DNA of 64,000 bases from Volutella citrinella (lineage: Eukaryota; Ascomycota; Sordariomycetes; Hypocreales; Nectriaceae): NCBI GenBank assembly GCA_034401135.1, contig JAWZSP010000008.1:3162001-3226000 (forward strand). Direction: 5' to 3'. Shown piece by piece: positions 33,932 through 60,788 of the stretch (position 1 is its first letter; each line of letters starts with the position of its first letter). The notes beneath the pieces were generated by a model, which worked only from the letters and a program-made list of their open reading frames with translations, searched no databases and had not been told where the DNA came from. A program made the translations under genes and the position numbers.

Positions 33932-35803
33932 CTACGCCTTGGTGCTCGTAGGGCTAGCCTTGTCCTCCTGCTCGTCCGCAACGACGACACCTCCCCGGTG
34001 GCTAATGGCCTGGAAGCGCTGCTTCTTAACATCAGCCAGGCCGTAGAAGCCGATGCACGTCATGCCCAAGACGGCCGAGATGGTGGAGAAGACGAGGGCG
34101 ACGATGCCCCGCGTGGTGAAGCCCGCAGGCAAAAAGTCCGGCTGCCTGTTCTGCCCGCTCAAGTCCAAAAAGTTGGCCGTATTGCCCGCCGCATTGCCCT
34201 CTGCCGCGACACCCGCCGCCTTGCACACGTCGTAGTGGTCCGCCGGGACGCTGACGCGCTCCTGGATCTGCTGCGGCGCCTCGATGAGCAGCATGGCCAG
34301 GCCGGACGACAGGTGCCAGTCGATGTGGCAGTGGAAGATCCAGATGCCCGGGTTATCAGCCACGAAGCGAATAACAAAATGGCCACCGGGGGGCAGGGCT
34401 AGCGTGTCTCTCCGGGCCGGGTACTGCGGGAAGTCGGTGTGGTTGTTGGGGTCGTAGGGCAGCAGCTCGGTGCCGTCCGAGTACTTGAAGAAGTCGGGTC
34501 CGTACGAGGGTTCGCGCACTAGGAGCTGGAACGTGTGGCCGTGCAGGTGGAACGGGTGGTTGCCCGTGTCGGCGTTGTTGAGCACAATCTCGACGACCTC
34601 GTTGTGCTCGAGCACCACGGGATGCGTAAACTCGCCGTAGATCTCTGCATTGGACGCCTGCGCGCCGGACGAGAGCACCGTGTACAGCGAGGGCACCTTG
34701 GGCGGCGTAAAGGTGATGTTGTCCAGCATGGCAAAGTTCTCGCCGTTCATCAGGTCGTTCATGAAGACGGTCACGTTGATCTGCTTGGCGGGATCTGGTA
34801 GGAGCGGCATCCTGTCGTTGGGCACCAGCTTCATGTCGTCGTACGGCACCAGGTCCTGGCTCTCGTCGACTGTCATGACGGCCACGGGGTGGTCGGCCTT
34901 GGGGTTATACTCGAGCCAGTTGGTCGTGTTGAGTAGCAGGTCCGACGGGATCGTGTCCATGAGCGTACTGTCGGCCACGGTGACGATGGCATAATTCTTG
35001 TCCGTCGAGTTCTTGGTCGTCAGGAGGATGGCGTAGCGCTGGGCCACCGACAGATACAGCAGGTCTGCTTCTTGCGGATCCGTGTAGACGCCGTCAATCT
35101 CGACAATCTTGAACGAGTGGTCCTCGATGTAGAAGTACTGGCCGATGAAGGCGCCGTGGTTGATGAGCCGGATGAGATACGTCTTGTTTGGCTCGACGGA
35201 GATGTTGGACTTGATGGTGTCGTTGAGCAGAAAGGATCCCGGGATGGGTTCTGCGCCCGACGGGTTGTACGGGGACATGAACTGTTCAGACAGGTCTTCC
35301 ATCATCTCGTGGTACCAGTCAGACATTGTGAGGACCAGCTCCTTGTCGTACTGGTCAGCAAAGTAGGCGTCCTTGTCGTGCACGATGAGGGCCTGGCGAT
35401 AGCCATCGGGGTAGCAGTAGTCGGTGTGGCAGTGGTACCAGTACGTGCCGTTCTGGTTGACGGTGAAGTTGTACGTGATGCTCGAGCCCGGCGGGACGGG
35501 ACACTGCGTGACCATTGACGGGCCGTCCATGTTGTTGGTCCCGTTCTGGAACATGCCGTGCCAGTGAATCGACGCCCTCTTGTCCCCAAGCTGGTTGTGC
35601 ATGTGGACGACGAGCCGGTCGCCCTTGTCCACCTCGACGACCGGCAGCGGCCACTGTCCGTTGATGCCCACCACCTTGCGCTCCGCGAGGCCGTCGGGGT
35701 TGGCCATGACCCAGCTGACGTTGAAGTCGTACGTGACCGTCTTGGCCCGGCAGTACGACGCCGTCGCGACCAGGACGGCCACCCGGCTGAGCCAGCGTGA
35801 CAT
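33932..35803 (-). CDS. FET3: Multicopper ferroxidase (Fet3 type)
   Basis: Cell-surface multicopper oxidase that oxidises Fe(II) for high-affinity uptake together with the Ftr1 permease. 623 aa, intronless. An N-terminal signal peptide is followed by three cupredoxin domains with the four copper motifs: HWHGMFQNGTNNMDG, WYHCHTDYCYPDGYRQ, NHPFHLHGHTF and IFHCHIDWHLSSGLAMLL. A single membrane span near the C-terminus (VALVFSTISAVLGMTCIGFYG) and a short cytosolic tail are typical of Fet3 and not of laccase. ATG at 35803 gives MSRWLSRVAVL; an ATG two codons upstream (35809) is also possible. The frame stays open to 36199, but that runs through the promoter. Note WYHCH where many Fet3 proteins have a Ser. 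Divergent from FTR1. Confidence 0.93.
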   Translation of the reverse strand: MSRWLSRVAVLVATASYCRAKTVTYDFNVSWVMANPDGLAERKVVGINGQWPLPVVEVDKGDRLVVHMHNQLGDKRASIHWHGMFQNGTNNMDGPSMVTQCPVPPGSSITYNFTVNQNGTYWYHCHTDYCYPDGYRQALIVHDKDAYFADQYDKELVLTMSDWYHEMMEDLSEQFMSPYNPSGAEPIPGSFLLNDTIKSNISVEPNKTYLIRLINHGAFIGQYFYIEDHSFKIVEIDGVYTDPQEADLLYLSVAQRYAILLTTKNSTDKNYAIVTVADSTLMDTIPSDLLLNTTNWLEYNPKADHPVAVMTVDESQDLVPYDDMKLVPNDRMPLLPDPAKQINVTVFMNDLMNGENFAMLDNITFTPPKVPSLYTVLSSGAQASNAEIYGEFTHPVVLEHNEVVEIVLNNADTGNHPFHLHGHTFQLLVREPSYGPDFFKYSDGTELLPYDPNNHTDFPQYPARRDTLALPPGGHFVIRFVADNPGIWIFHCHIDWHLSSGLAMLLIEAPQQIQERVSVPADHYDVCKAAGVAAEGNAAGNTANFLDLSGQNRQPDFLPAGFTTRGIVALVFSTISAVLGMTCIGFYGLADVKKQRFQAISHRGGVVVADEQEDKASPTSTKA

Positions 35804-36380
35804 GATCATGTTTTTTTTAAGGCTATCCCGTAGTGCTGCAGACTGCGGATTGTGCGCCAGCGACGTCTGCAGATCGATGGAGGGGGGGATTGTTATTATG
35901 GCCATCAGCATCAAATGTTGATCATCCCACGCAGGCGGCACCTCGTCGCAGCTCGCCGGCGCCATCGGCAATCCGGCACAGCTCAAGCTGCCTGCCAGGC
36001 GAGTAAAAACTCTGGGATGTGCCGTCTCTGGACCCATGGGCTCGCCTAAATTGGGCGTTTGAGTCGGTTGAGACGCTCGAGTGATGCCCGATTCGGCAAG
36101 CCATGGTGGAGGCGGCATCCACAACGCCACCGGATAAGCGGCACCGACTGGAGCTCTAGATCGATAACGGGCAGGGTGAGACCCCGCGGGATGCAACAAG
36201 GTTCTCTAATCTGATCCGCCGTCACGGCTATCTCGGCCTCGATCATGTCGGCAGTGCTTGATATATCGCCTAGACTTCCTGACCGTCTGGCTGCCCGACC
36301 TGGTCACAGACTCAGTCGCGTCCCCCCCCCCATCCAGCCGAGGCTCTTCACTCGTCTCTTCCCCCCCAAGCTTCCTCATC
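35804..36380. promoter_or_regulatory. Bidirectional FET3-FTR1 promoter with GATA cores
   Basis: 577 bp between the two starts. GATA cores on either strand occur at 35824-35827, 36133-36137 (GATAA), 36163-36167 (GATAA), 36229-36232 and 36260-36267. ATCTGAT, close to the core of the siderophore GATA-repressor site ATCWGATAA, lies at 36209-36215. In fungi this gene pair is repressed by an SreA/Urbs1-type GATA factor when iron is plentiful. A C run lies at 36322-36331. Confidence 0.6.
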
Positions 36381-37508
36381 ATGGCGCAAAATGTCTTCGC
36401 CGTGCAAATCTTCTTCATCGTCTTCCGAGAATGCCTCGAGGCAATCATCATCATCTCGGTGCTGCTGGCCTTCCTGAAAAAGACGCTCGGCGGCCCCGAC
36501 CAGGACAAGGCCATCTACAAGCGCCTTGTCAGACAGGTGTGGTGGGGTTCCCTCGGTGGCATCGCAATCTGTCTCGTTATCGGGGGCATTTTCATCGGCG
36601 TCTTCTACGGCCTGGGCAAGGACCTGTGGGCCAAGTCCGAGGAATTGTGGGAGGGCATCTTCTACCTCATTGCGTGCATCATCATCTCCATCATGGGGTT
36701 GGCCCTCCTGCGCATCAACAAGATGCAAGACAAGTGGAAGGTCAAGATCGCCCACGCCCTGGCCGAAAAAACTAGCAGCGATGGCAAGAAGAAGTCGCGG
36801 TGGCACCACTGGTCCCGGCGGCACATCATGTTCATCCTACCCTTCATCACCACGCTCCGCGAGGGCCTTGAAGCCGTCGTCTTCGTCGGCGGCGTGTCCC
36901 TATCGCTGCCCGCCTCGTCCTTCCCCCTCCCTGTCATCTGCGGCATACTGGCCGCCGTCCTCGTCGGCTTCTTCATCTACCGCGGCGGCAACATGGTCTC
37001 GATCCAGATCTTCCTGACCGTGTCGACGGCCGTGCTGTACCTCATCGCCGCCGGCATGTTTTCCAGGTCCATCTGGTACTTCCAGACGTACGTCTTCATC
37101 AAGAAGGTCGGCAGCGACGTCGCCGAGGCCGGCAACGGCCCGGGGTCCTACGATGTCAGGCAGAGCGTCTGGCACGTCAACTGCTGCAACCCGGAGACGG
37201 ACAACGGCTGGGACGTCTTTGGCGCCATCCTTGGCTGGCAGAACTCGGCCACCTATGGTTCCGTCATCTCCTACAACGTCTACTGGCTGGCCCTCATCAT
37301 CGTCATTGGGTGCCTCTTTTACGAGGAGCAGACGGGTTCCCTGCCCTTCAAGAAGCCCGTTCTCGCCGTCCTGGAAAAGGTACCGGTGTTGGGAGCGCGA
37401 ATCCGACGGAAGAGGGAGATGGCTGCCAAGGATGGCGACGAGATGCTGGACAACATTCAGCACCAGAACCTTGGGCTCCACCAAAATGGCAATGGCAATG
37501 ACAACTAG
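36381..37508 (+). CDS. FTR1: High-affinity iron permease Ftr1
   Basis: Plasma-membrane iron permease that takes up Fe(III) made by Fet3. 375 aa, intronless, seven hydrophobic segments. Both REXXE iron-binding motifs are present: FRECLEAIII in helix 1 and LREGLEAVVF in helix 4. The N-terminus MAQNVFAVQIFFIVF follows ATCATGG, which decides the start over the open upstream frame from 36258. The loop DVRQSVWHVNCCNPETDNGWDV and the span SVISYNVYWLALIIVIGCLFYEE are typical. Divergent from FET3, the usual fungal arrangement for the reductive iron assimilation complex. Confidence 0.95.
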   Translation: MAQNVFAVQIFFIVFRECLEAIIIISVLLAFLKKTLGGPDQDKAIYKRLVRQVWWGSLGGIAICLVIGGIFIGVFYGLGKDLWAKSEELWEGIFYLIACIIISIMGLALLRINKMQDKWKVKIAHALAEKTSSDGKKKSRWHHWSRRHIMFILPFITTLREGLEAVVFVGGVSLSLPASSFPLPVICGILAAVLVGFFIYRGGNMVSIQIFLTVSTAVLYLIAAGMFSRSIWYFQTYVFIKKVGSDVAEAGNGPGSYDVRQSVWHVNCCNPETDNGWDVFGAILGWQNSATYGSVISYNVYWLALIIVIGCLFYEEQTGSLPFKKPVLAVLEKVPVLGARIRRKREMAAKDGDEMLDNIQHQNLGLHQNGNGNDN

Positions 37509-48145: not shown

Positions 48146-48979
48146 ATGGACCCGCCGCCAACCTACCACCTCCCCCCAAACTTCTCGACCCCGCCTCCTC
48201 CCCAGGGCCCGTTCCATCTTGGGACTGTGATGCGGAACTTTGAGGTTAGGGAGCGGATGAGGTCGCTCGACCAAGGCGAGAGGATCGCCGGCGAAGACGT
48301 ATACTCGGACCCCCGGGGACCATTTACAGCGACGAGAAGGATGCTCAAAAGTGGCGAGTTCGGCCTTTGGGCCGAGTTCGTCGGGATCGAGGGCATCGGC
48401 GGAGAGTCTCGTATCTCTGCAGAGCGGAGTGACTCTGACAGGTATGTACTCTGCTGTCCTCTGATGCTGTCCCAAACAGTAACATCTATTTGCAGATATG
48501 AATTTGCCAGCGTCGAAACGACTTCCTTCTACCCAAGCAAAAAGTACATTTCGGACTGCCTAAACCTCCCTAATGTGGAAGACTATCTCATTGGCTCTCG
48601 TTATAAGAAGCCAGTCTATCTCGTCACAGGAATCAAGGTCGGAAAGGGGGTGACTGTCCACAGAGAGAAAAAGACAGTGGCACAGGGTGTGTTGCAAGAT
48701 GAACCGGTCTATACCTTCACCGAGTCAAGCGACATCGTGGTTGGCCTTCAGTGCTTGAAGATTTATCACGCAAAGTCTCAGTGGGGGGCTGGAAAACACA
48801 GGGTGAAGAAGGAGGTAGTCACCTCTGGCGCCGCATTCTACGGCGAAGGTGATGAGGAAGAGCAAGAAGGGCTCACCGAATTCATCGCTGTGAAGCCTGA
48901 GGAATACGAAAACCCGGATCTGGAGTGCTGTGCTAATGGAGATGAAGTTTGGATGCTGCCCAAGACTGAGGCCGTTTAG
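48146..48979 (+). CDS. Gasdermin-like (RCD-1/HET-Q1-type) candidate
   Basis: 259 aa from 48146-48441 and 48496-48979 with a 54-bp GT..AG intron. The intron is a multiple of three and has no stop, so an unspliced message would add 18 residues. The N-terminal part reads GPFHLGTVMRNFEV, then FGLWAEFVGIEGIGGESRIS, YEFASVETTSFYPSKKYISDCL and KKPVYLVTGIKVGKG: a beta-rich, amphipathic pattern and total length that I associate with fungal gasdermins, which form membrane pores after proteolytic removal of a short C-terminal piece. Here a strongly acidic tail begins near residue 220 (EGDEEEQEG) and could be that piece. The neighbour is a subtilase-domain protein, the known partner type. Family assignment is by recollection of pattern and context, not by search; the alternative is an uncharacterised fungal family of similar size. 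Confidence 0.6.
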   Translation: MDPPPTYHLPPNFSTPPPPQGPFHLGTVMRNFEVRERMRSLDQGERIAGEDVYSDPRGPFTATRRMLKSGEFGLWAEFVGIEGIGGESRISAERSDSDRYVLCCPLMLSQTVTSICRYEFASVETTSFYPSKKYISDCLNLPNVEDYLIGSRYKKPVYLVTGIKVGKGVTVHREKKTVAQGVLQDEPVYTFTESSDIVVGLQCLKIYHAKSQWGAGKHRVKKEVVTSGAAFYGEGDEEEQEGLTEFIAVKPEEYENPDLECCANGDEVWMLPKTEAV

Positions 48980-49186
48980 GCGGCTCAGCATCGTCACACC
49001 GTTTTTGTCTGCATCTCTGGACCGGGGCTCACAGTGTGATCTTCACATAGGTATTGGTGTTTTCAGTCTATCAACTATACAAACTGCCATCTATTCCTTA
49101 CTCCGCACAACCCTGTAAAATGACATGCGCTTCATGTTTGGCCAATGTTGGTGTGCCGGTGTCTAGCCACAAGTTGTTATACCATT

Positions 49187-52070
49187 CTAATAGCAAGGGT
49201 TGATAATCCTCCGGATTCGTTGAGCTACCTCATCGTCTGACCGGCCTTTTGTCCACAAGTGCAACGGCATAACATAATCGTAGCCGCCCCGCGACACGAC
49301 ACCTTGCTGTACCATGAGCTTGAGAATCTGCTGAATGTTGTTGAACTGATGCAGCAATCGGTTCTCGTGCTCGTCTAAGTGGCACATGTGCCGGGCAAAT
49401 TCGAGCACATCGGCAACAAAAGCTGCCGCCAGAGGCGTGGCAAAGGACGTCCCAGAGATGGCGATGGGCTTGTTCTTCCACCTTGATGGGATGCATATAC
49501 CCAACGTTGAGAAGTTGTCCCTGCGGTTCATGGGCGTGGGGCTGATTCCACCGTCGTTGCCCACGCCGTCACTGGCATGGATGCATATCACACCAGCCTC
49601 CCTGTTGGACGGGTACGCTCGCGGCTTGTTGCCGCCATCGTTGGCAGCCGCTGCAAAGATGCTTATGTTTGCCTTTTCTGCCTCGAATATGGCGTCGTCA
49701 ATCTCGTTGTCTCGGAAGTCAAGGCCGCACGACATTGAGATGATGTTGACCCTTTTCTCTGTGGCCCACTTGATGGCCTGATGCGCAAACGTTAGCAATC
49801 AACCTCGTTTCCCGTGGGACATCGATACGAACCCTTGCTATTCGGTGCACGTTCTGGCGTGTAACGGTTGTCTGATTCGCAATCTTGGCAATGAATAATT
49901 TCGCCGATGGGGCAGCGGTCAACATGAGTCTGGCAACGTGTGTCCCGTGGCCGTGGACGTCTTGGAAATCGGCAGGATCCGGGGTTGAATCTCTGTCGAT
50001 CACAAACCCACAGCAATCCTTGATGCGTCCTTCGTCCAGCGCCACCTGCACCATCCCGTCTTCTTCTGAGTCGATGCCAGTGTCAAGTATCGCAATTCGA
50101 ATTGGATCCATCAGCCAGGCGTCCCAGGGAGTGGGGAATGTGTCCGTCACTCGCTGGATTTTATCCGCAAATTCCTTGACCATCCCCATAAACGATTTAG
50201 CGTTGCCCATTTTTCTGTCGGATCACAACCTTGTCAGCCGTAGTCTCAATGCAGGAAACATGGACACTCACTTTTGGTCTGTGGGTGACGCCTGAGATCC
50301 ATCAAATAGTCTAATGTCGGAAGGAGTATTTATTCGCTCTGGGTTGTAATTTCTCAAAGCTGGCGTTGCAGACTTGGGAAGTTCGGGAAATAGGCCCTTG
50401 ATCTTTCGAAATTTGCCGACGACAAGCCGGAATAGGGGTGCGAGAATGTACTTGTAGATCGCCCCAGTCCGTTTTGTACCAATCTCCTGGTTCAAAGATC
50501 GATCGTGGAATTTGTCGGACAATTGTTTGAACATGAGGCATGCTGTAGCAATGTCCTTGTAACTGTCTTCAACATCATCGGCCCATTCCTCGAGGATGCG
50601 CCTCAACAAGCTATCGAGGGAATAGTCTTCAGTATCCCAGCTTTTGTCTTCTTCTTTCCATTCGGCTATTCGATTGGCTTCCATTTGCATAATAAGAAGA
50701 CCAAATGAGATTACAGCGGTGTTTTCGTCTTCAGTATCGTCTGTCATTTGTAGAGAGGAGGTGATGTGCGGTTTCCAGCGAGGCAATGGATTCGAGCACT
50801 GCCTTGTTACATGCGCTGAGATTCTGTCGAGATCAAAGCCTAGCCGAATCCAATGGCTTGTGCTTAGGTTCAATAATGAACACGCAACGAGAAGCTCAAG
50901 TATCTTCCTGTCTTGGTCATTGAATCTTGAGCTTCGAGGGATGATGTGATCAGATCGGGGAAGTATCAGTTTTTCTAGCGCGACATGAAGCTCTTGATCT
51001 GAGAGGCTGGAATGAGAGGGCCCACAATCTTGGATTGTTTCGTCCCACATTGCTTCTTGGTTGAAAGCTCGATGGACCAGTCTTGGGCCCTGGCCTTGTT
51101 GGCCACAGACGGTGTGTCTATTTGCAGGTTCTGTAGGTGCCTTTGCCCTGATGCACTGTTAAACAATGACATTGAAGGGAGTTTGGAGGAGATATTCGAA
51201 CCATGTATACTTGGCTGAGTGCCAGTGCTCCTTTTCACAATCCTCAATCACTACTTCAAAAGTTGCATTTGAGGCGAGGAAGCCAGATAAGTGCAGTCGA
51301 GCCGTGTGATCCCCCGAACAGGTAATGCTTCCCGCAAGCAGATCAAAAATTTTCCTCGACAGTCGGTTGAAAGACAAAGCCTTGCGGATGAAACTCGTCT
51401 CATCATCGGCGAGGTGCGTGGCGTTGCCAAGGTTTCTCTCCAGGGCATCGATGGGGTCTTCTTGGAGTTTGACTATTGCGGCCCGAAACTCGCCCATGCT
51501 TTCGACAATCTCAGACAAGCTGTAGTGCTGCGAGCTTTCGAAATCGATACATTTGGCTAACTTCACTATCGTGTTTCTCTGTCGGCCTTTTGATGGAGAA
51601 GTGTTATGTTCGGGGTTGACATTCACGCTCTCTAGAACGCCCCTCATAATCATGAGATTGGGAAATTTGAGATGCAACTGCCCATACTAACAGAAGGCAG
51701 CAGATCAGCGGACTATTTATCAAACGACAAGTGGAATCCATACCTCAGACTCTTTTTCCGGGTTGGTATAATCCCGACTCTGGATCTTGTGACGTTTGGC
51801 CAAGTCCGTTGATAGTAGAGATTCGAGGACTTCTAGTAAAGAGTAAAGGGGTCGAGAAAACCTGATGCTATCTAGGTCTGTCTGTTCTAGGCCGGCATCC
51901 GGCAATATGATGGGCATGGAGCGGAAATATTGGCGCATCTTGTGGATGTTGTTTTTAGTGGTTAGGTCCAGCTTGTGTCTGTCGACATTTCCTGGCAGCG
52001 CCTTGTCGAAAACGGGATGGAGCTTGACAAAGAGTTGCCATAAGTCCTGGCCGCGGATTCCCACATCCAT
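49187..52070 (-). CDS. NLR-associated subtilisin-like (S8) protease with helical N-terminal domain
   Basis: Intracellular subtilase, 883 aa, no signal peptide. Five exons: 51744-52070, 51211-51686, 50272-51147, 49833-50214 and 49187-49777; introns of 57, 63, 57 and 55 bp. The intron at 51148-51210 is the least certain. Residues 1-560 form a helical, regulatory-looking region with a DUF7580-like segment (RKILELLVACSLLNLSTSHWI; AVISFGLLIMQME; LDSLLRRILEEWADD). Residues 600-830 are the protease domain with the full triad: Asp604 in IAILDTGID, His649 in HGHGTHVA and Ser798 in SGTSFATPLAAA, plus the oxyanion Asn in AAAANDGG. In Podospora the gasdermin HET-Q1 is cleaved by an adjacent subtilase HET-Q2; this gene lies 207 bp from a gasdermin-like gene, tail to tail. 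Probably the activating protease. Confidence 0.85.
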
Positions 52071-52654
52071 GATGCTTGGGGAAGAGGATGCCTTTTCAAG
52101 GACCGTAAACGGTTGGCGCGATCGGCTTCGGCACGGGCCGTCCGCGAGTTAGGCATTCCTAGAGTGGAGATTTGTGTGAATGCTACCGTGCTGGGTATAT
52201 CTGTAGAATGATCAGATGGTTTGGTTGCTTGGGTCGGTCAGAGTGACGCAAAGCACTGCCACCTCTGAGAGCTACTGGATAGCGTCACCACAAGCCGTCA
52301 GAGGGCATCGCTTCAAAGGACAAACGGGTGAGAATGAGGCTGAAAGCGGGGTTGTGTAATTATGTGTGCGGCTCTGCGTTGGTCACATGATTCGGGCTGC
52401 GCGCCTTTCAGCCCTTGGTCGAGACGGCAGGCTGACTCCTCTAACCCATCAGACACACTTCCAAATTATCACAACAGCAAGAAGATATAGGGTCTTACAA
52501 CGGGAAGTGGTAAGACGCCCCATAGAACGCTAAAGCCTAACACGTGCTAACGTTGCTCACGAGGCCGAACAAGAACGACTCTCCCTTTTCGATGGCATAG
52601 CCCCGCAGCGATTGTTCGACACAAGGCACCGACGGCCCTGGAAGGACAAACACA
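52071..52654. promoter_or_regulatory. Bidirectional promoter, subtilase / NLR
   Basis: 584 bp between divergent ATGs at 52070 and 52655. Shared control of protease and receptor is suggested by the layout. No specific motif identified. Confidence 0.5.
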
Positions 52655-55600
52655 ATGTCCTCGGACGATGAACTACAATGCTTTGATGCTATGGATGTAG
52701 ACTGCGACGGAGATTCCGGCGAGCCAACCTATGAATACGACGATGAGCCAAACGCCGAGGACCAAGAAGACTCCAGCGCCGACCAACAGAGCTCCAGTGA
52801 CGACGAAGATAATAATGAAAAAATTTCCGAGGCAGTGAACTCTTGTCTCGAGCTCTTCTCCAGATTTCAAGGGCAAGACCATTCATCAGACACCTCTGCA
52901 GAGCCATCGCAGATAGTTTACGAGCGCCGAACTGAGAGAGACGACTTGGTCAAGGACATGAAGCGAAGCTTTGACCTTTGGATTGACTATACCGGGGCTC
53001 TAGCTGCCGATCTTAGTCGGTCTCTCGATGCGCGCCTGCAAAGCTACAAGGACATCAGGGATATGTCCGTAGAACTGCTTCAGATGCTTGCGAGCAACTT
53101 GGAATGCTGTGGGTTCTGACTCTATGCCATGCCGAACGAGAAGAAAGCTGAATTGACTTTGACTTTGGCCAGTTCTCTCCACATGTGAGGGTCCCGACAG
53201 CGAGCTAGAGAAAGAAGCAGCCAAAGGCATCCGCGATGCGGTTGAAGAACTGCATTTCATGGCGACCGTCATTCGAAAATCTTCTGTCCGAAATCAGAAC
53301 TACAGTCTCTCCTCCGGGTTCGAAAGGGACGAGGATACCTACTTTGGAAACTACGCGTTTCTCATCATCAAGCATACATTTCCCCATGCTCGCCTATCCC
53401 TCTGCAAGCAGCTTGCTGCTTCGATTGCAGCCCGCCGGAAGCGTCTACGCCGTAACATTCAGCACGAGGGGAAACTCAAGAGGAGACGAAAACCGACTCA
53501 AGCAGATAGCCGCCCGGTGCCGACAGACCCAGTTCCTCATTCTCAGCCATCTCGGCCCGAACCTGACGCGTTACCTGCTTGCCTATTGCCACCACTGCAA
53601 GTCGAGAGACAAGCTAATTCTAGAAGATCCATCGACACGAGAAGCAACCTCGACGCCGGAATGGCTCGCCGCCGCTTACGCCTAAAACCGGCACTTTCAA
53701 CCATTAGCAAGGGGTCTTCTGTGCGCCTTTCTGACCGCAAGTATCCTCCTATGCCTAATTTCCAGCCTGGAGACACGGACTGTGCCTGTCCGTATTGCGC
53801 TCGGAGGCTAGCTACCGCGAGGTTAAGGGCAAGTCCTGGATTCTGGGAGTATGCAGTTGTCCCAAACTTACCCCGTGCTCAGCCCGGCTTCTAACTAGGA
53901 CTTAGAGACCACTTGGACGAAGACGTGCAGCCTTACGTTTGCCTATCGGAAAACTGCATATCCCCATTACTCTTCTTTGCTCACATGAAACAGTGGGTTG
54001 ACCATATGAACTCTGTTCATTCGGAGCAGTGGACCAGGACAATTCATATGAGCACCTGGTACTGCGATGCGAATCACGAAATCGAGCAGTTCAACGACGT
54101 TGATAGTTTTATGCAACACATGAAAGATCCGGAAAATCATCCAGGCCGAATGCCGCCAAGCGACTCACAGCTGGATACCCTTTCCAGGAAGAGGCAGAAG
54201 GTTCTAACACGAGTGAATGAGTATTCATGCCCACTGTGCGACTGCATCCCAGATACACTCAAGCCGGTCATTCCGACTGGTGAACCGAAGGCCATTCTAA
54301 AACAGCTGCACAAGCACATTGCCAGCCATATCAAGAGCCTTGCTGTTCTGTCCGTCCCAGCGCTGACCAGCGAAGAAATGCCTCATGATGCCGCTAATGA
54401 GTCTAAATATGACGATAAGGGCCGTCAGCTGAAGGAAGACGAGGAAGCATCCTACCCAAGCGGATATGATGAAGAGCTTCGTGCAGTACCTCTCTCTGAT
54501 GATAGGAATCTGGAACTCCCTCCAATCCTTCTGGATGTTTCTGAGACTCAGAACACACACTGGCAAGATGTTGGATTTCAGCGATGGTACCAAAATGGAG
54601 GAGCCAAGGCCAAGTCTCTGGGCTTGGAAAATGATGCTATCCTTCAGCATTTCGCCCAAATCCAGAATGGTGGCAATGCAAATCGAGAGTCTGAGCCGAT
54701 ATCTTTTAATGATACTCATCTTGTGGTAGGTGCCCCTCGTTTTCATGGAGAGAGTCGATCAGCTGCTAACTCTTTGAAGGACCACACTGTTGAGTTGGGC
54801 GAAGCCGACTACACCGTCGCTTGGGTATGCGGACTTCCAATGGAGGCAGCTACTGCACGAGCGTTCTTCGACGAGGAACATAACTATCCGATATCCGTTT
54901 CTCTTCATCATGCCAACTCATATATATTTGGCAGGATGGGGAGCCACAACGTCGTTATCGTTACCCCGTCTTCTAAGTCGTCCTACAAGTCTATTGCTAC
55001 TAACATCCCCTCAAGTTTGAGCAAAGTTTTCTCCAGAATTCAAATCTACTTGATGGTGGGCATCGGCGCTGGTGCACCAAGTCAGAAGCATGATATCCGC
55101 CTGGGCGATGTCGTAGTTGGTTTCGCTGAGGATGGCGAGGCCGGCGGACACCTTCAATACGATCTTTACAACCGCGCTCGAAGTCAGACCCTCCAACGGA
55201 CGAGAAACTCAGACAAACCACCCAGGGTACTACGGGCTGCAGTTGACGAATTCAGAAAGCAATCTAGGATGCAAGTACACAGCTATGCAGCGGAAATAAA
55301 CACGGCCCTCAGCAATAATCCAGGCCTACCGAAAAGCTTCAATCGACCAGACACCAGCAGCGACAGACTATATTTGCCCGAAGTGTTGCATCCCGCTGGT
55401 AATAAATCAAATTGCGCGGCAGTCTGTGGTACCGAGCCATCCAAACTGATTTTTCGACCGCAACGGATCGGGGACGATGGCAGCCCGGCAATCCACTACG
55501 GCGCTATTGCCTCGGCATCCCAGATTTTGTTGGATGCTTCTCTCAGGGATTCAATTTCCGCCAACGAAAATGTTCTGTGTTTTGAAACCCAACTGACGGA

Positions 55601-57794
55601 ACTGATGAGCAATTTCCCTTGCCTGGTTATCCGTGGTATCTGTGACTACGCGGACTCTCACCGGAACGCGGAATGGGAAGGCTATGCAGCCATGGCGGCT
55701 TCCGCATATGCCAAAGGTCTTCTCGATCGAATACCCCCAGCTAAGGGGGTGTGGCTTGAAGCAGAAAAAAATGAGTGCCATCAGCTGTTCCTGCTCGGAG
55801 CGAACTGTAAGGAGGCCACATACGAGTTATCTAAAGACCGAGTAAGAGAAAGGGTTGAAGAGACGTGTCTGTGGTTCCTCGAGCACGACAACTACCAAAC
55901 GTGGACGAGGCAAGATTCTGGACCCCTGATCGTTTCGGCCGATCCTGGATGTGGAAAGACCGTGCTAGCCAAGTATTTGATCGACTACGGCCTTCCACGA
56001 TCGGCAACCATCTGCTACTTTTTCTTCAGCGACACAGACCACAACAGTGTCCAACAAGCACTATGCGCGCTACTTCACCAACTCTTCTCTGAGAAACCGT
56101 TTCTGCTCGAATATGCCATGACTGTGCTGTATCAAAATGGGCCAAATTTTATCAACTCTCGCAAGTCACTCTGGAAGATTCTAGAAACTACTCTCCAAGA
56201 TCTCAGAACAGGGCCTGTGATTGTGGTTCTCGATGCCCTGGATGAATGTTTGGATTATGAAGACATGATGCGAATTGTCGAGTACAGCTACCGCGATGAA
56301 CAATTGTTTGGTGGCACCCTGAAGTGTCTTATAACATGTCGTCCTTATGAGCATATCATGTTCAAGTTCCGTGGCCTGCTGGATGGTTTCCCGAAATTCT
56401 GGGTACCAGGAGAGGAATACTCAGCAACAATTTGCGGAGAGGTGGATCGAGTCATTACGCACCGGGTCAATCAGCTATCGCTGGAGCACGGCCTCTCGGC
56501 CCAAATCGAGAGTTATTTGGAAAAAAGACTACTGGAGACAAAACACTACACTTATCTCTGGGTTTGCCCCGTTCTGGATGACTTGGAGCAAGGAAACTTT
56601 AAGAAGACGGCAAAGGGTATCAAGTCTGCTCTCGCAACACTCCCAGTCAGCGTCAACCAAGCATATGAGAAAATCTTCGACAACGCCAACAAGGCAGGAG
56701 GCCAAGCTCGCCCGCCGTCCCAGCCAAGCCAACGAGATGCCTTAAGTATCATCTTGGCGGCACGCCGGCCGCCGACTGTCTCAGAAATGCACATTGCGTT
56801 GGCGATAGACAGCACATCCAAGACTTTTCACGACCTTGAATTGGCGGATGACGACCATTTCAAGGAACGTTTCAGAAATTTGTGTGGATTGTTTGTCTCA
56901 TTTCATGAAGACGACATTCATTTCCTTGACCCATCCGCTAGGCGGTTTTTGCTTGCCGATTCGGCCTCACCCACAGCTGTCGTCTCAAGTCCGCGCTGGC
57001 GCCACTCAATCGCCCTTAACCATGCACACGCTGTTCTGGCAAGAGCCTGCGTGCGCTACCTGAGCTTCCTTGACTCTGATGCTAGTTTTATTATAGGTAC
57101 AAGAGGCGAAGCTGGCAGCGATGCCGCTCGCGACAGCTTCTTTGAGTATTCGGCCCAACATTGGGGCTCTCATTTCCGGGACGCCAGCATCATGGATGAC
57201 GATGATATTATCCCATTGGCTATCAGAATCTGTGATCCGGGATCCACAAGCAACTCCATTTGGTTCGCACATTATTGGAAGAATAAATTTGACACTGCAA
57301 CCACTACTCTTACGAATCTCATGGCGGCATCACATTTTGGCCTTGTCTGTATCGTCAAAAGGCTGCTGGAGATGGGCACCATGATCGAGGCAAAAGACCC
57401 TACCTACGGCCAGACGCCTCTGTCGTGGGCCGCCGAGAACGGACACGAGGCAGTGGTGAAACTGCTGCTTGACCGGGGTGCCGACATCGAGACAACAGAC
57501 ACAAAATACGGCCAGACGCCTCTGTCGTGGGCCGCCGAGAACGGACACGAGGCAGTAGTGAAAGTGCTGCTTGAATGGGGTGCTGAGATGGAGACACGCG
57601 ATTTTCCATATGGTCGGGGTCCCCTTTTATGGGCTGCTGAGGGTGGGCATTACGCAGTTGTGAGGCTGCTGCTCCGCCGGGGCGCTATTGTGGACAAACG
57701 TGATCAGGATGGAAACACGGCAGAAATGTTAGCCACCAGGAACGACCACGAGGCAGTGCTACAGGTGTTGAGAGGGGAAACACCCACAGTCTGA
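52655..57794 (+). CDS. NOD-like receptor: zinc-finger-like N-term, PNP_UDP, NACHT, ankyrin repeats
   Basis: Intracellular STAND receptor of 1672 aa. Exons 52655-53108, 53173-53848 and 53906-57794; introns 64 and 57 bp. Order: acidic N-terminus (1-70) and helical domain; basic Pro/Arg-rich linker (about 240-330); Cys/His-rich segments (DCACPYC; PYVCLSENC; YSCPLCDCIP with following His) like degenerate C2H2 fingers (360-520); PNP_UDP nucleoside-phosphorylase-like domain (about 678-986, starting DYTVAWVCGLPMEAATARAF, with YLMVGIGAGAP and VIRGICDYADSH); NACHT with Walker A ADPGCGKT (about 1054) and Walker B VIVVLDALDECLD (about 1148); helical part; four ankyrin repeats (about 1513-1668). This class mediates non-self recognition and cell death in fungi. 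Complete and intact. Confidence 0.9.
57405..57608 (+). repeat. Near-identical 102-bp ankyrin-coding direct repeat
   Basis: Units begin at 57405 and 57507. The first 56 bases of each differ at one position only, far more alike than the flanking ankyrin units. It encodes YGQTPLSWAAENGHEAVVK twice in succession. Such homogenised repeats are known in fungal NLRs under diversifying selection. Confidence 0.9.
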
Positions 57795-58206: not shown

Positions 58207-60788
58207 CTAGTTGGCTCCAGGACTAGGGGTAATAAAAGATATGTAGTCGGTGAAGCCATGATGCTTTTCACCCTTTCCCGGCAAGCGGCTCATCAAATAA
58301 ACTTGCTTTTCAAGTCTTAAGTCCACCTTTTTCCCACCATCCGAGGTCGTGTGCCAGTTGACCGTGGCCATGTTGTCCGATCCAAGCGCCACCCGCGCAG
58401 CAATCTGTCGACTTAGCTTTAGACGTGGCTTGAACAGAACTCTCTTCGCTCCCGGCTCTAGGATGTGTAAACCAGCTACCTCTACGCAGTATTCGTAGAC
58501 TGGCACGCTTCCCCAGGCATGGCAGTCTGAGCGGTGTCGAACGTCGTCCTCCTCCCACGTTGTGAGGTTGTTCGTCAACATCTGGCGCCACGGCTGCCAA
58601 GTTCGCGCCCAAGCCGACTCGTACACTTCATCTCCGGCAAGAGAAAATGCTCTTAGTGCGTAGAACATCATGACGTAGGAACACCTTGAAAAGCTCGGGT
58701 CGTCAAAGGCGGAAGTGAGAAGGCGTGCGCTTTCTTCAGGGGTCGCAGCACCAGAGAGAACGCCGAAAGCCTGGCAGTGCTGCGAGTATGCTGACGAGTC
58801 AGCAATATCAGCAGTAGAATCTGTGAAGAACTTGCCGTCGAAGCAGTGCTTTCGGACAGCCGCGACGACGGAAGCGGCTTTCGAGATGTACTCGTCCGCA
58901 TGCCCGGGGCGGCCCACGTCTCTAACCAATCGGGCCGCCTGCTTGAGAGTGTAGGCATAGAGCATGCTGAAAAAGGTGTGGCGGTTCGATTTCCTGCCCG
59001 ATGTGGGAACTCCCTTGTCAGGATGCTCCTCAGTCGCCCCCCAGGTGGTGACCCAGTCGACGTACTGCCACACATCCTCCGGGAGACCGCTGACAAGGCC
59101 CAGGGAGTCAATGTGGCGATCAAAGAAGTCAAGGACCCCATCGATCCGAGGCACAAACGATCGAGCATACGCGGTGTCGCCGAAGAACAAGTGGTGATCG
59201 CAGACCTGCAGTATCCAGTATAGTGGGAATCCGGCAATGATCTGGGGGACGTGTGAAGGAAAACGGGACTGGGTCAACCCCTCGGGAGTGACTGAGGCAG
59301 CAAAGTTGGTGATGCATTGTCTCATGAGTCGATCATCGCCCGAGAGAAGATAGTGGAATAAGCCGACTGAGCGAGAGTCCCCGGAGTATCTGCACATTCA
59401 TTGGTCAGCCAGGCAAAAGTGTGCCAGAACGTCGGCAAAGGAAATACGTACTGCAGTTGTTCATAAAATGGACAGTCTGAGTATCCGTCGAACATGCAAT
59501 TCCTCAGGGTCCTGACTGAAACATCCCACATCTCTCTGCTGTCGCTGTCGTCAGCATCATGCCAGCTAGCTTTGACAGCAAGTGGATAGTTGGTCTGAGA
59601 GGCTGTGAAGGAAATAATCTCGAGTGGTTCAGCCCCGGTGTTGATCTCCCATCGCATGACGCGGAAAGTTCTGAACCAGAATGGTTCATATACCACGGCC
59701 TCGGAAGCTGGGATGGTCAACACGGCTTCGTCATGTGGGCCAACGATGTGGCCATTGACAGAATCCAGACGATCGCCCTTGCTACGAAAGAAGGGGTATG
59801 TTGGAGAATCATACTCATAGCCTTCAGAGTAAGTGGCTTTGATTCGGATCTGGCAAGGTTTGGCGGCTGTGAATGACCAACAGGGGAATGCTGTCGAGTG
59901 GACGTCGGCCACAACATCTACCTTGTATGACGAATTCTTTGAAAGGATCAGGGTCGATTTGCCTGACAACATTTCTACCCACTGGTCAGACGATACGTCG
60001 CCCTCGCAGTTGCGAGCGCTGCCTATGGCCACCCTCGACTCTTCTGGAAGTGGGATGCAGCGTGGACGAAGGCGCCAAGGAGGGAGTTCTCCGTTCAGGG
60101 TGTTGAAGTTGTAAGGAACCGGTGTGACGGACTTGGCTGGTTCAGCCGGGGTGACACGCTCATTGATCTGGTTTCGGCTGTGTCAGAGACTTGTCTAGAA
60201 CCGAGAATCGCAAGAAACTCACGTGGAGGAAGACATCCTCCGGCAAACCCTGTGGGAACAAAACTGTGTTATCGATCTCGGCCTGCCAGCCCTCCAGTGA
60301 GTCCAACTGAGGGAACTCATCTCTGGCGTACGGGTCAGAGATGACAGTGATGCCAGGATACGCAGTCCTCTCAAAGGGCATGCCACCACGAGAGGTGGCA
60401 AAATAACGGATGACGACGAAGCAAATCTCATTATCCCCTACCCTGAGGAATGGGACAATGTCAAGCGAGTCATAGTACCAGATGGAGTGGCCGCTTCTCG
60501 CCGGCCCGACAGCAGCACGGGTGCCGTTGACGTAGAGTTTGTAACGCGTGTCGGCCGTGAAGTGCAGAAGAGCATGGTCTGGGAGTGAGCTGAGCGTGAC
60601 GAGGCGCCGGAATCTGACGATGCGCGCGGTTGTGTTGCTGCTAGAACTATCGTTCCAATTGGGGACCCATACCCAATTCGACTGGAGCTTGTTGATGATG
60701 TGCTGTGGGACGATTTAGCATAGTCCAACTAACAACTAGGAGGCGGCTCTTGTACCTGGGTCATGGTTTTGTCGCCCAATGCCTCCAT
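58207..60788 (-). CDS. GH78 alpha-L-rhamnosidase
   Basis: Bacterial-type (Bac_rhamnosid) alpha-L-rhamnosidase, 803 aa. Exons 60756-60788, 60223-60702, 59452-60167 and 58207-59389; introns 53, 55 and 62 bp. The first exon is only 11 codons (start ATG at 60788). Domain order: N-terminal beta-sandwich (RFRRLVTLSSLPDHALLHFTAD and ADTRYKLYVNG split by position), the middle sandwich VYEPFWFRTFRVMRWEI, then the (alpha/alpha)6 catalytic domain with FDGYSDCPFYEQLQYSGDSR (general acid Asp/Glu region), LPEDVWQYVDWVTTWGA and the C-terminal HRSDCHAWGSVPVYEY. No signal peptide, so probably intracellular. Lies in the same orientation 3' of a GH79 gene. Confidence 0.9.

Follow-up and report, generated by a model that had tools for sequence, protein, structure and literature searches.

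The 64,000-nucleotide stretch of Volutella citrinella DNA analysed here (assembly GCA_034401135.1, contig JAWZSP010000008.1, positions 3,162,001 to 3,226,000 of the forward strand; hereafter the window) contains three directly adjoining genes, which encode a predicted gasdermin, a subtilisin-like protease of family S8 and a NOD-like receptor (NLR). With moderate confidence we read these genes as a regulated-cell-death cassette, in which the NLR would trigger the protease through contact between its N-terminal module and a pseudokinase-like domain, and the protease would free the gasdermin. Two-gene gasdermin–protease clusters are already known; the apparently new part is the third gene, in which a module of fixed sequence is followed by interchangeable tails. 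A preliminary description of the window had proposed a candidate cell-death/non-self module at this position. The results below support that proposal, joint action of the three proteins being what their sequences and arrangement suggest.

Three adjoining genes

The genes lie in the following order:

48146..48979, + strand: fungal gasdermin-like putative pore-forming protein, 259 residues; exons 48146-48441 and 48496-48979
48980..49186: 207-bp gap separating gasdermin and protease, whose genes are convergent
49187..52070, - strand: Q2L-type intracellular protease, 883-886 residues, with helical N-terminus, DUF7580 and Peptidase_S8 (from Pfam and homologues)
52071..52654: intergenic stretch between the divergent protease and NLR starts, 584 bp
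52655..57794, + strand: NLR-type third gene, 1672 residues; exons 52655-53108, 53173-53848 and 53906-57794

The layout agrees with the preliminary description, which had placed the three genes side by side with the NLR directly divergent from the protease: 207 bp separate the stops of gasdermin and protease, and 584 bp the start codons of protease and NLR. Gene models were built from open frames and splice sites and then compared with homologues. Given ordinary introns, all three frames are open.

A gasdermin beside a protease with a kinase-like regulatory region

The gasdermin gene runs from the ATG at 48146 to the stop at 48979 with a single 54-nt intron (48442-48495). This intron is supported by the absence of the 18 residues it would encode from 32 of 34 aligned gasdermin homologues, the other two of which (P0007 and P0009) carry an insert at the intron position. 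In a single-sequence phmmer search against all PDB chains RCD-1-2 ranked first (8jyy, E=1.8e-4; 8jyz_B, E=1.4e-3). The profile comparison that the preliminary description had proposed as a check gave 8jyz_B at E=4e-10 and four RCD-1 sequences at E<=5.6e-6, the next, unrelated sequences appearing only at E 0.027 or worse. Neurospora RCD-1 structures were the best matches by sequence, profile and predicted fold alike. A Pfam scan of the product gave no match; its closest homologue, P0001, matches the PADLOC bGSDM model (E=9.4e-7). By sequence and predicted fold, therefore, the 259-residue product is a fungal gasdermin of the RCD-1/HET-Q1 type, as had been suspected. From the conserved GAAFYG motif to the C-terminus there are 50 residues. 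One segment departs from the family:

48650..48715, + strand: shortened segment, presumed second pore hairpin of RCD-1; 22 residues against 38-60 in homologues

The segment is shortened but present, and the sequence is conserved on either side of it.

The protease gene has five exons (52070-51744, 51686-51211 or -51202, 51147-50272, 50214-49833 and 49777-49187). Its least certain junction is that between exons 2 and 3, where the choice of donor (51210 or 51201) gives 883 or 886 residues; an intron here is supported by the paralogues at loci B, C, F and G (letters denote loci of the same genome), whose frames break at that position, while no break occurs at locus I. An intracellular subtilase with an intact triad had been predicted, and Pfam found Peptidase_S8 (E=1.7e-23) with DUF7580 upstream; the N-terminus is helical. 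The motifs DTGID, GHGTHVA and GTSFATP are intact and start at residues 604, 648 and 796. Over residues 1-880, nearly end to end, the protein shares 58% identity with P. pancosmium P0046. An S8 domain with an Asp-His-Ser triad and a gasdermin adjoining at 207 bp make it Q2L-type, a class assigned from these features and not from comparison with the HET-Q2 sequence itself. For DUF7580 a two-lobed kinase-like fold was predicted in a homologue; on this model the domain is kinase-like. By eye, the catalytic motifs HRD and DFG were not seen in the aligned DUF7580 segments, no systematic check having been made.

A constant module with interchangeable tails

The third protein consists of a module of approximately 640 residues followed by an NLR:

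52655..54695, + strand: N-terminal helical/C2H2-like module, approximately residues 1-640, defined by homology across third genes with unrelated tails
53907..54365, + strand: zinc fingers (C2H2-like) of the module; this part served as query in the first search of the whole genome
54816..55121, + strand: PNP_UDP-like domain; Pfam stretch below cut-off, the domain probably extending to ~55.7 kb
55860..56342, + strand: NACHT-type STAND ATPase (NPHP3_N), with P-loop ADPGCGKT at residue 1055 and Walker-B-like VVLDALDEC at 1150
57318..57602, + strand: ankyrin repeats, best Ank_2 stretch (Pfam)

This gene had been described as a PNP-NACHT-ankyrin NLR. NACHT and ankyrin stood (NPHP3_N, E=6.8e-35; Ank_2, E=2.6e-30), the P-loop is intact, and the central NACHT with C-terminal ANK repeats marks the protein as a fungal NLR. 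The PNP match stayed under the Pfam cut-off (PNP_UDP_1, E 0.033), as did that of homologue P0112 (5.8e-5), and the ~640 residues preceding it had gone unmentioned.

The module comprises helical-looking parts and then C2H2-like fingers. It gave no Pfam match over the cut-off in the window protein, and scans of ten homologues gave none at E<=0.01 within their first ~600 residues; it is possibly a new signalling domain family. Residues 57-638 are 62% identical to Clonostachys P0108, after which the window protein continues as an NLR and the other as a kinase. The same exchange recurs among further species. After the module stand PNP-NACHT-ANK in the window and T. proteolyticus, a kinase in Clonostachys, Lophiotrema and Cosmosporella, HET in Apiospora, NB-ARC-TPR in F. 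austroafricanum, NACHT in F. oxysporum P0117, and alpha/beta-hydrolase-like and AAA matches, both under the cut-off, in Coleophoma. In Trichoderma atroviride P0115 (TrAtP1_002477) module and S8 occur in one predicted protein, and nothing was recognised after the module in P0118. P0117 and P0118 are more distant homologues (30%), and P0114 and P0115 are without part of the finger region.

Linkage in other species

A search with module residues 41-560 listed 12 matches, nine of them at E<1e-100 (a cluster of several members is represented by its longest contig). Judged by equal contig size as a proxy for the same contig, together with locus numbers rather than sequence, eight of these nine best homologues have a gasdermin homologue, a protease homologue or both on their contig (P0108, 520050; P0109, 3431454; P0110, 3412585; P0111, 215347; P0112, 3162851; P0113, 2378880; P0114, 16170; P0116, 3629637), in line with the earlier expectation that the genes are kept together in relatives. 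The eight represent seven species, P0109 and P0110 being two assemblies of one, and the four species that were classified belong to Sordariomycetes, Eurotiomycetes, Leotiomycetes and Dothideomycetes. The ninth is the fusion P0115. In Coleophoma and Cosmosporella the three genes carry consecutive locus numbers, as do gasdermin and protease in Talaromyces rugulosus (11743/11742). The gasdermin matches listed number at least 45, 24 of which are species-named; at least 10 of the 24 have a protease match on an equal-size contig, including Apiospora sp. TS-2023a with gasdermin and protease locus numbers far apart, and at least 7 have a module match. Since homologues of these genes are linked in other species, we conclude that the three-gene adjacency is more than chance.

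Protein identities also varied together. Pairwise identities of gasdermin and module correlated with a Spearman coefficient of 0.85 (window and seven species, 28 non-independent pairs) and those of gasdermin and protease with 0.79 (15 pairs), all uncorrected for species distance. T. proteolyticus (Eurotiomycetes) and Coleophoma (Leotiomycetes) are mutually closest of the set in both gasdermin and module, as if the cassette genes travelled or persisted together regardless of host class.

Linkage within the genome

Genome-wide searches covered this one genome of 45.1 Mb in 26 contigs, in which the window corresponds to C8:3162001-3226000. The finger part of the window module found 10 places, its own locus included, nine of which have a DUF7580 gene no more than a few kb away; beside the tenth (E 0.003) there is none. 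With the finger part of locus C as query 8 of 8 places, and with the helical part of locus G 6 of 6 loci, were beside a DUF7580 gene. These three query sets overlap, each with its query's own locus, and are not independent. Random placement near 15 DUF7580 loci would yield nine of ten with a probability of ~4e-21 (~1e-18 without the query's own locus), values that serve only as a guide, genes not being randomly placed.

A hidden Markov model (HMM) of the module was run on fetched loci chosen around DUF7580 and module matches. Fingers together with some or all of the helical region were found at loci A, B, C, E, F, G, H, I, J and K. At M, where the frame runs off the stretch, only the helical part was matched (E 3.7e-7); no module was found in the fetched stretches of D and N. 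A module gene is thereby present at 11 of the 13 DUF7580 loci examined. All 10 full copies of the module have a frame break close to HMM position 335, and eight of them, G and H being the exceptions, have another close to position 110. Nine module–DUF7580 pairs are arranged divergently and the pair at E convergently; at M a gasdermin separates the two.

Both partners vary in their outer parts. DUF7580 is fused to S8 at A, B, C, F, I and M and to PNP at E, G and H, with no partner domain recognised at J and K. The module tails, read by taking neighbouring frames as one gene, are Goodbye-NACHT with weak TPR matches (B), kinase-like just under the cut-off (C), kinase (K), RhoGEF with a weak PH match (F), DUF7896 with a ubiquitin-like domain (J) and a weak SH3 match only (G); no tail domain was recognised at E, H and I.

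Six gasdermins were found in the genome (A, B, C, D, M and C9:256852). Each adjoins an S8 gene, the sixth as ankyrin-S8 frames, and a module gene is present at four of the six loci (A, B, C and M; one seen only in part).

Several of these loci have features of their own. The fourth gasdermin (L008:4801-5739, C2:1052300-1053238) lies beside a DUF7580-S8 gene and without a module gene; its read-through frame contains an in-frame TGA, which points to either an intron or decay. The sixth (L030:1307-5210, C9:253.8-257.7 kb) is divergent from the ankyrin and S8 frames; the 10 kb examined gave no match to module or DUF7580, and from its predicted genes this is an ordinary two-gene cluster. The DUF7580-PNP proteins (L014:6183-8147, C1:567182-569146; L021:699-2654, C9:1963198-1965153; L019:739-2841, C3:454238-456340) are each encoded beside a module gene, with no recognised gasdermin in the stretch fetched. 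Loci F and I (L016/L017, C1:5822 kb; L022/L023, C1:300 kb) carry a DUF7580-S8 and a module gene with no gasdermin found nearby; candidate substrates there include a 436-residue frame (L022:2659-3966), for which Pfam gave nothing, and, at C1:5826934, a short one. At L028:3982-5253 (C1:3488481-3489752) a HeLo match (its C-terminal part) is followed by DUF7580. A membrane-killer helix bundle before a pseudokinase-like domain is the order of MLKL. In the window itself, positions 33932-37508 hold divergent multicopper-oxidase-like and iron-permease-like frames, presumably an ordinary FET3/FTR1 iron-uptake pair, and 58207-60182, beside the NLR, hold glycoside-hydrolase-like frames that we take to be alpha-L-rhamnosidase-like.

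Proposed mechanism and alternatives

We infer the following sequence of events, from autoinhibition to cell death. At rest, a short C-terminal tail would keep the gasdermin inactive, and the N-terminal region of the protease, helical and pseudokinase-like (DUF7580), would do the same for that enzyme. The third protein would act as receptor, its variable C-terminal part (PNP-NACHT-ankyrin here) sensing a non-self or damage signal and oligomerising. The conserved module would dock on the helical–pseudokinase part of the protease and gather or unlock protease molecules. The subtilase would then clip the gasdermin tail, the freed N-domain would form membrane pores and the cell would die. Swapping the tail with the module kept would connect one death switch to different alarms.

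Cleavage of the neighbouring gasdermin is the default reading because gasdermin and S8 protease are an established effector pair (HET-Q1/HET-Q2). Docking is suggested because a constant module lies beside a constant regulatory region while the outer parts of both are swapped, and the T. atroviride module–S8 fusion would fit it if its gene model is right. Among the roles of on-switch, restraint and second output, which sequence cannot tell apart, we favour the on-switch because the third protein is here a full NLR. On a wider scale, we hold it evenly balanced whether these loci form a platform: a helical/C2H2-like 'plug' with interchangeable sensors or effectors (NLR, kinase, HET, hydrolase, RhoGEF) would fit a DUF7580 'socket' with interchangeable enzymes (subtilase, PNP), mostly back to back, and the subtilase sockets, often with a gasdermin, would constitute a three-protein pyroptosis pathway, inflammasome-like in outline.

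Several observations weigh against the cassette. Across species, several of the shared contigs are megabases long, so that co-occurrence there is not adjacency. Three of the 12 module matches (P0117, P0118 and P0119) are without a partner among the matches listed, the F. oxysporum module protein having no linked gasdermin there, and among those matches 14 of the 24 species-named gasdermins are without a protease and 17 without a module on an equal-size contig. Identities of protease and module correlate weakly (Spearman 0.49, p=0.06, 15 pairs). The fusion P0115 may be a faulty gene model, since part of its finger region is missing, and for DUF7580 Foldseek gave no E-value better than 9e-3. Within the genome two of the six gasdermin loci are without a module gene, and seven of the 11 module loci are without a recognisable gasdermin in the stretches fetched; the module–DUF7580 pair therefore cannot be gasdermin-specific. 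Finally, the hairpin segment of 22 residues compares with 38-60 (mostly 44) in all 34 aligned homologues. For this reason the window's gasdermin may not make pores.

That segment is also what speaks for a degenerating locus, in which an ancestral cassette worked and the window copy has become poreless. We regard this as unlikely, though less so than the other alternatives, and it is compatible with the cassette; the open frames, the intact protease triad and NLR P-loop, and the conservation that continues on either side of the segment argue against decay.

It is somewhat less probable that the unit has two genes and a second output, with the DUF7580-protease as sensor or hub and the third protein as an extra effector arm recruited through the module alongside the gasdermin. 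The third gene could be output rather than sensor because its tails are on the list of NLR effector domains: kinase, HET, DUF676, PNP and S8 are among the N-terminal NLR domains studied as effectors in the part of the survey consulted (PMC9815663). The module loci without gasdermin, and the PNP in place of S8 in three of 11 DUF7580 partners, point the same way. This scheme accounts poorly for tails that contain a STAND ATPase (window, T. proteolyticus, F. austroafricanum and F. oxysporum) and ankyrin or TPR repeats, the usual parts of receptors (the first three of these).

We think it improbable that the third protein is instead a brake or guarded partner that restrains the protease, its loss or mismatch after cell fusion causing death as at an allorecognition locus. 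Tight linkage and a shared divergent upstream region would suit co-regulated lock-and-key pairs, as would varying tails on a kept module, but gasdermin–S8 pairs exist in the same genome without a module gene (locus D; C9:256.8 kb). That the NLR is an unrelated neighbour of a gasdermin–protease unit is very improbable and already disfavoured: fungal NLR genes are abundant and gasdermin–S8 pairs without a third gene are known, but module homologues are linked in seven other species (eight of the nine best matches) and a module gene accompanies four of the six gasdermins of this genome.

Relation to known systems

Approximately 63% of fungal gasdermins cluster with an S8 protease gene, and cleavage of HET-Q1 has been reported with HET-Q2 (PMC10197012). 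Podospora anserina HET-Q1/HET-Q2 and the gasdermin-Q2L clusters likewise place a gasdermin beside a multidomain S8 protease (PMC10197012, PMC12881547). The HET-Q system differs in that the protease-bearing protein is there called the sensor, and in that P. anserina has het-Q1 and het-Q2 as alternatives at a single locus. A 2025 review mentions two- or three-gene clusters generally and, in the portion consulted, details only an amyloid cluster among the latter (PMC12881547). No description of a third gene with a helical/C2H2-like module and swapped tails was found in the literature searched, which did not cover Clave et al. 2022.

Among solved structures, those of Neurospora crassa RCD-1 (8jyy, 8jyz and 8jyx) come nearest to the pore-forming domain. 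RCD-1 is activated through the meeting of two allelic forms rather than by cleavage (PMC12881547); unlike RCD-1, the window gasdermin has a shorter second hairpin segment and a protease neighbour. The PNP-NACHT-ANK fungal NLRs have the domain order of the second half of the window NLR. In Sordariales, 57 zinc-finger NLRs are described, 34 with C2H2, and the finger is C-terminal in 52 of the 57 (PMC12258605), whereas the window finger lies within the N-terminal module of ~640 residues, which also occurs in proteins without a STAND domain.

Bacterial gasdermin (bGSDM) operons likewise cluster a gasdermin with a protease gene. We know of no helical/C2H2-NLR partner in them, no search having been made. 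If our model holds, the mammalian pathway from NLR inflammasome through caspase-1 to GSDMD is alike in outline, with separate receptor, protease and gasdermin; it differs in protease class, and in the window the genes are clustered.

The stimuli that activate the sensors of fungal death pathways are named as a major open question, and the regulation of gasdermin-activating proteases as a task for future work, in the consulted portion of the 2025 review (PMC12881547). A third gene with a fixed module and many tails, beside a protease with pseudokinase-like regulation, is a testable candidate for the missing upstream step. The finding also draws attention to a domain family not matched in Pfam, and it predicts a binding partner for DUF7580. 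The subtilases at F and I and the PNP enzymes at E, G and H, wired alike without a recognised gasdermin, possibly act on unknown substrates or outputs. Through tails that vary among species, one death switch may be wired to different alarms.

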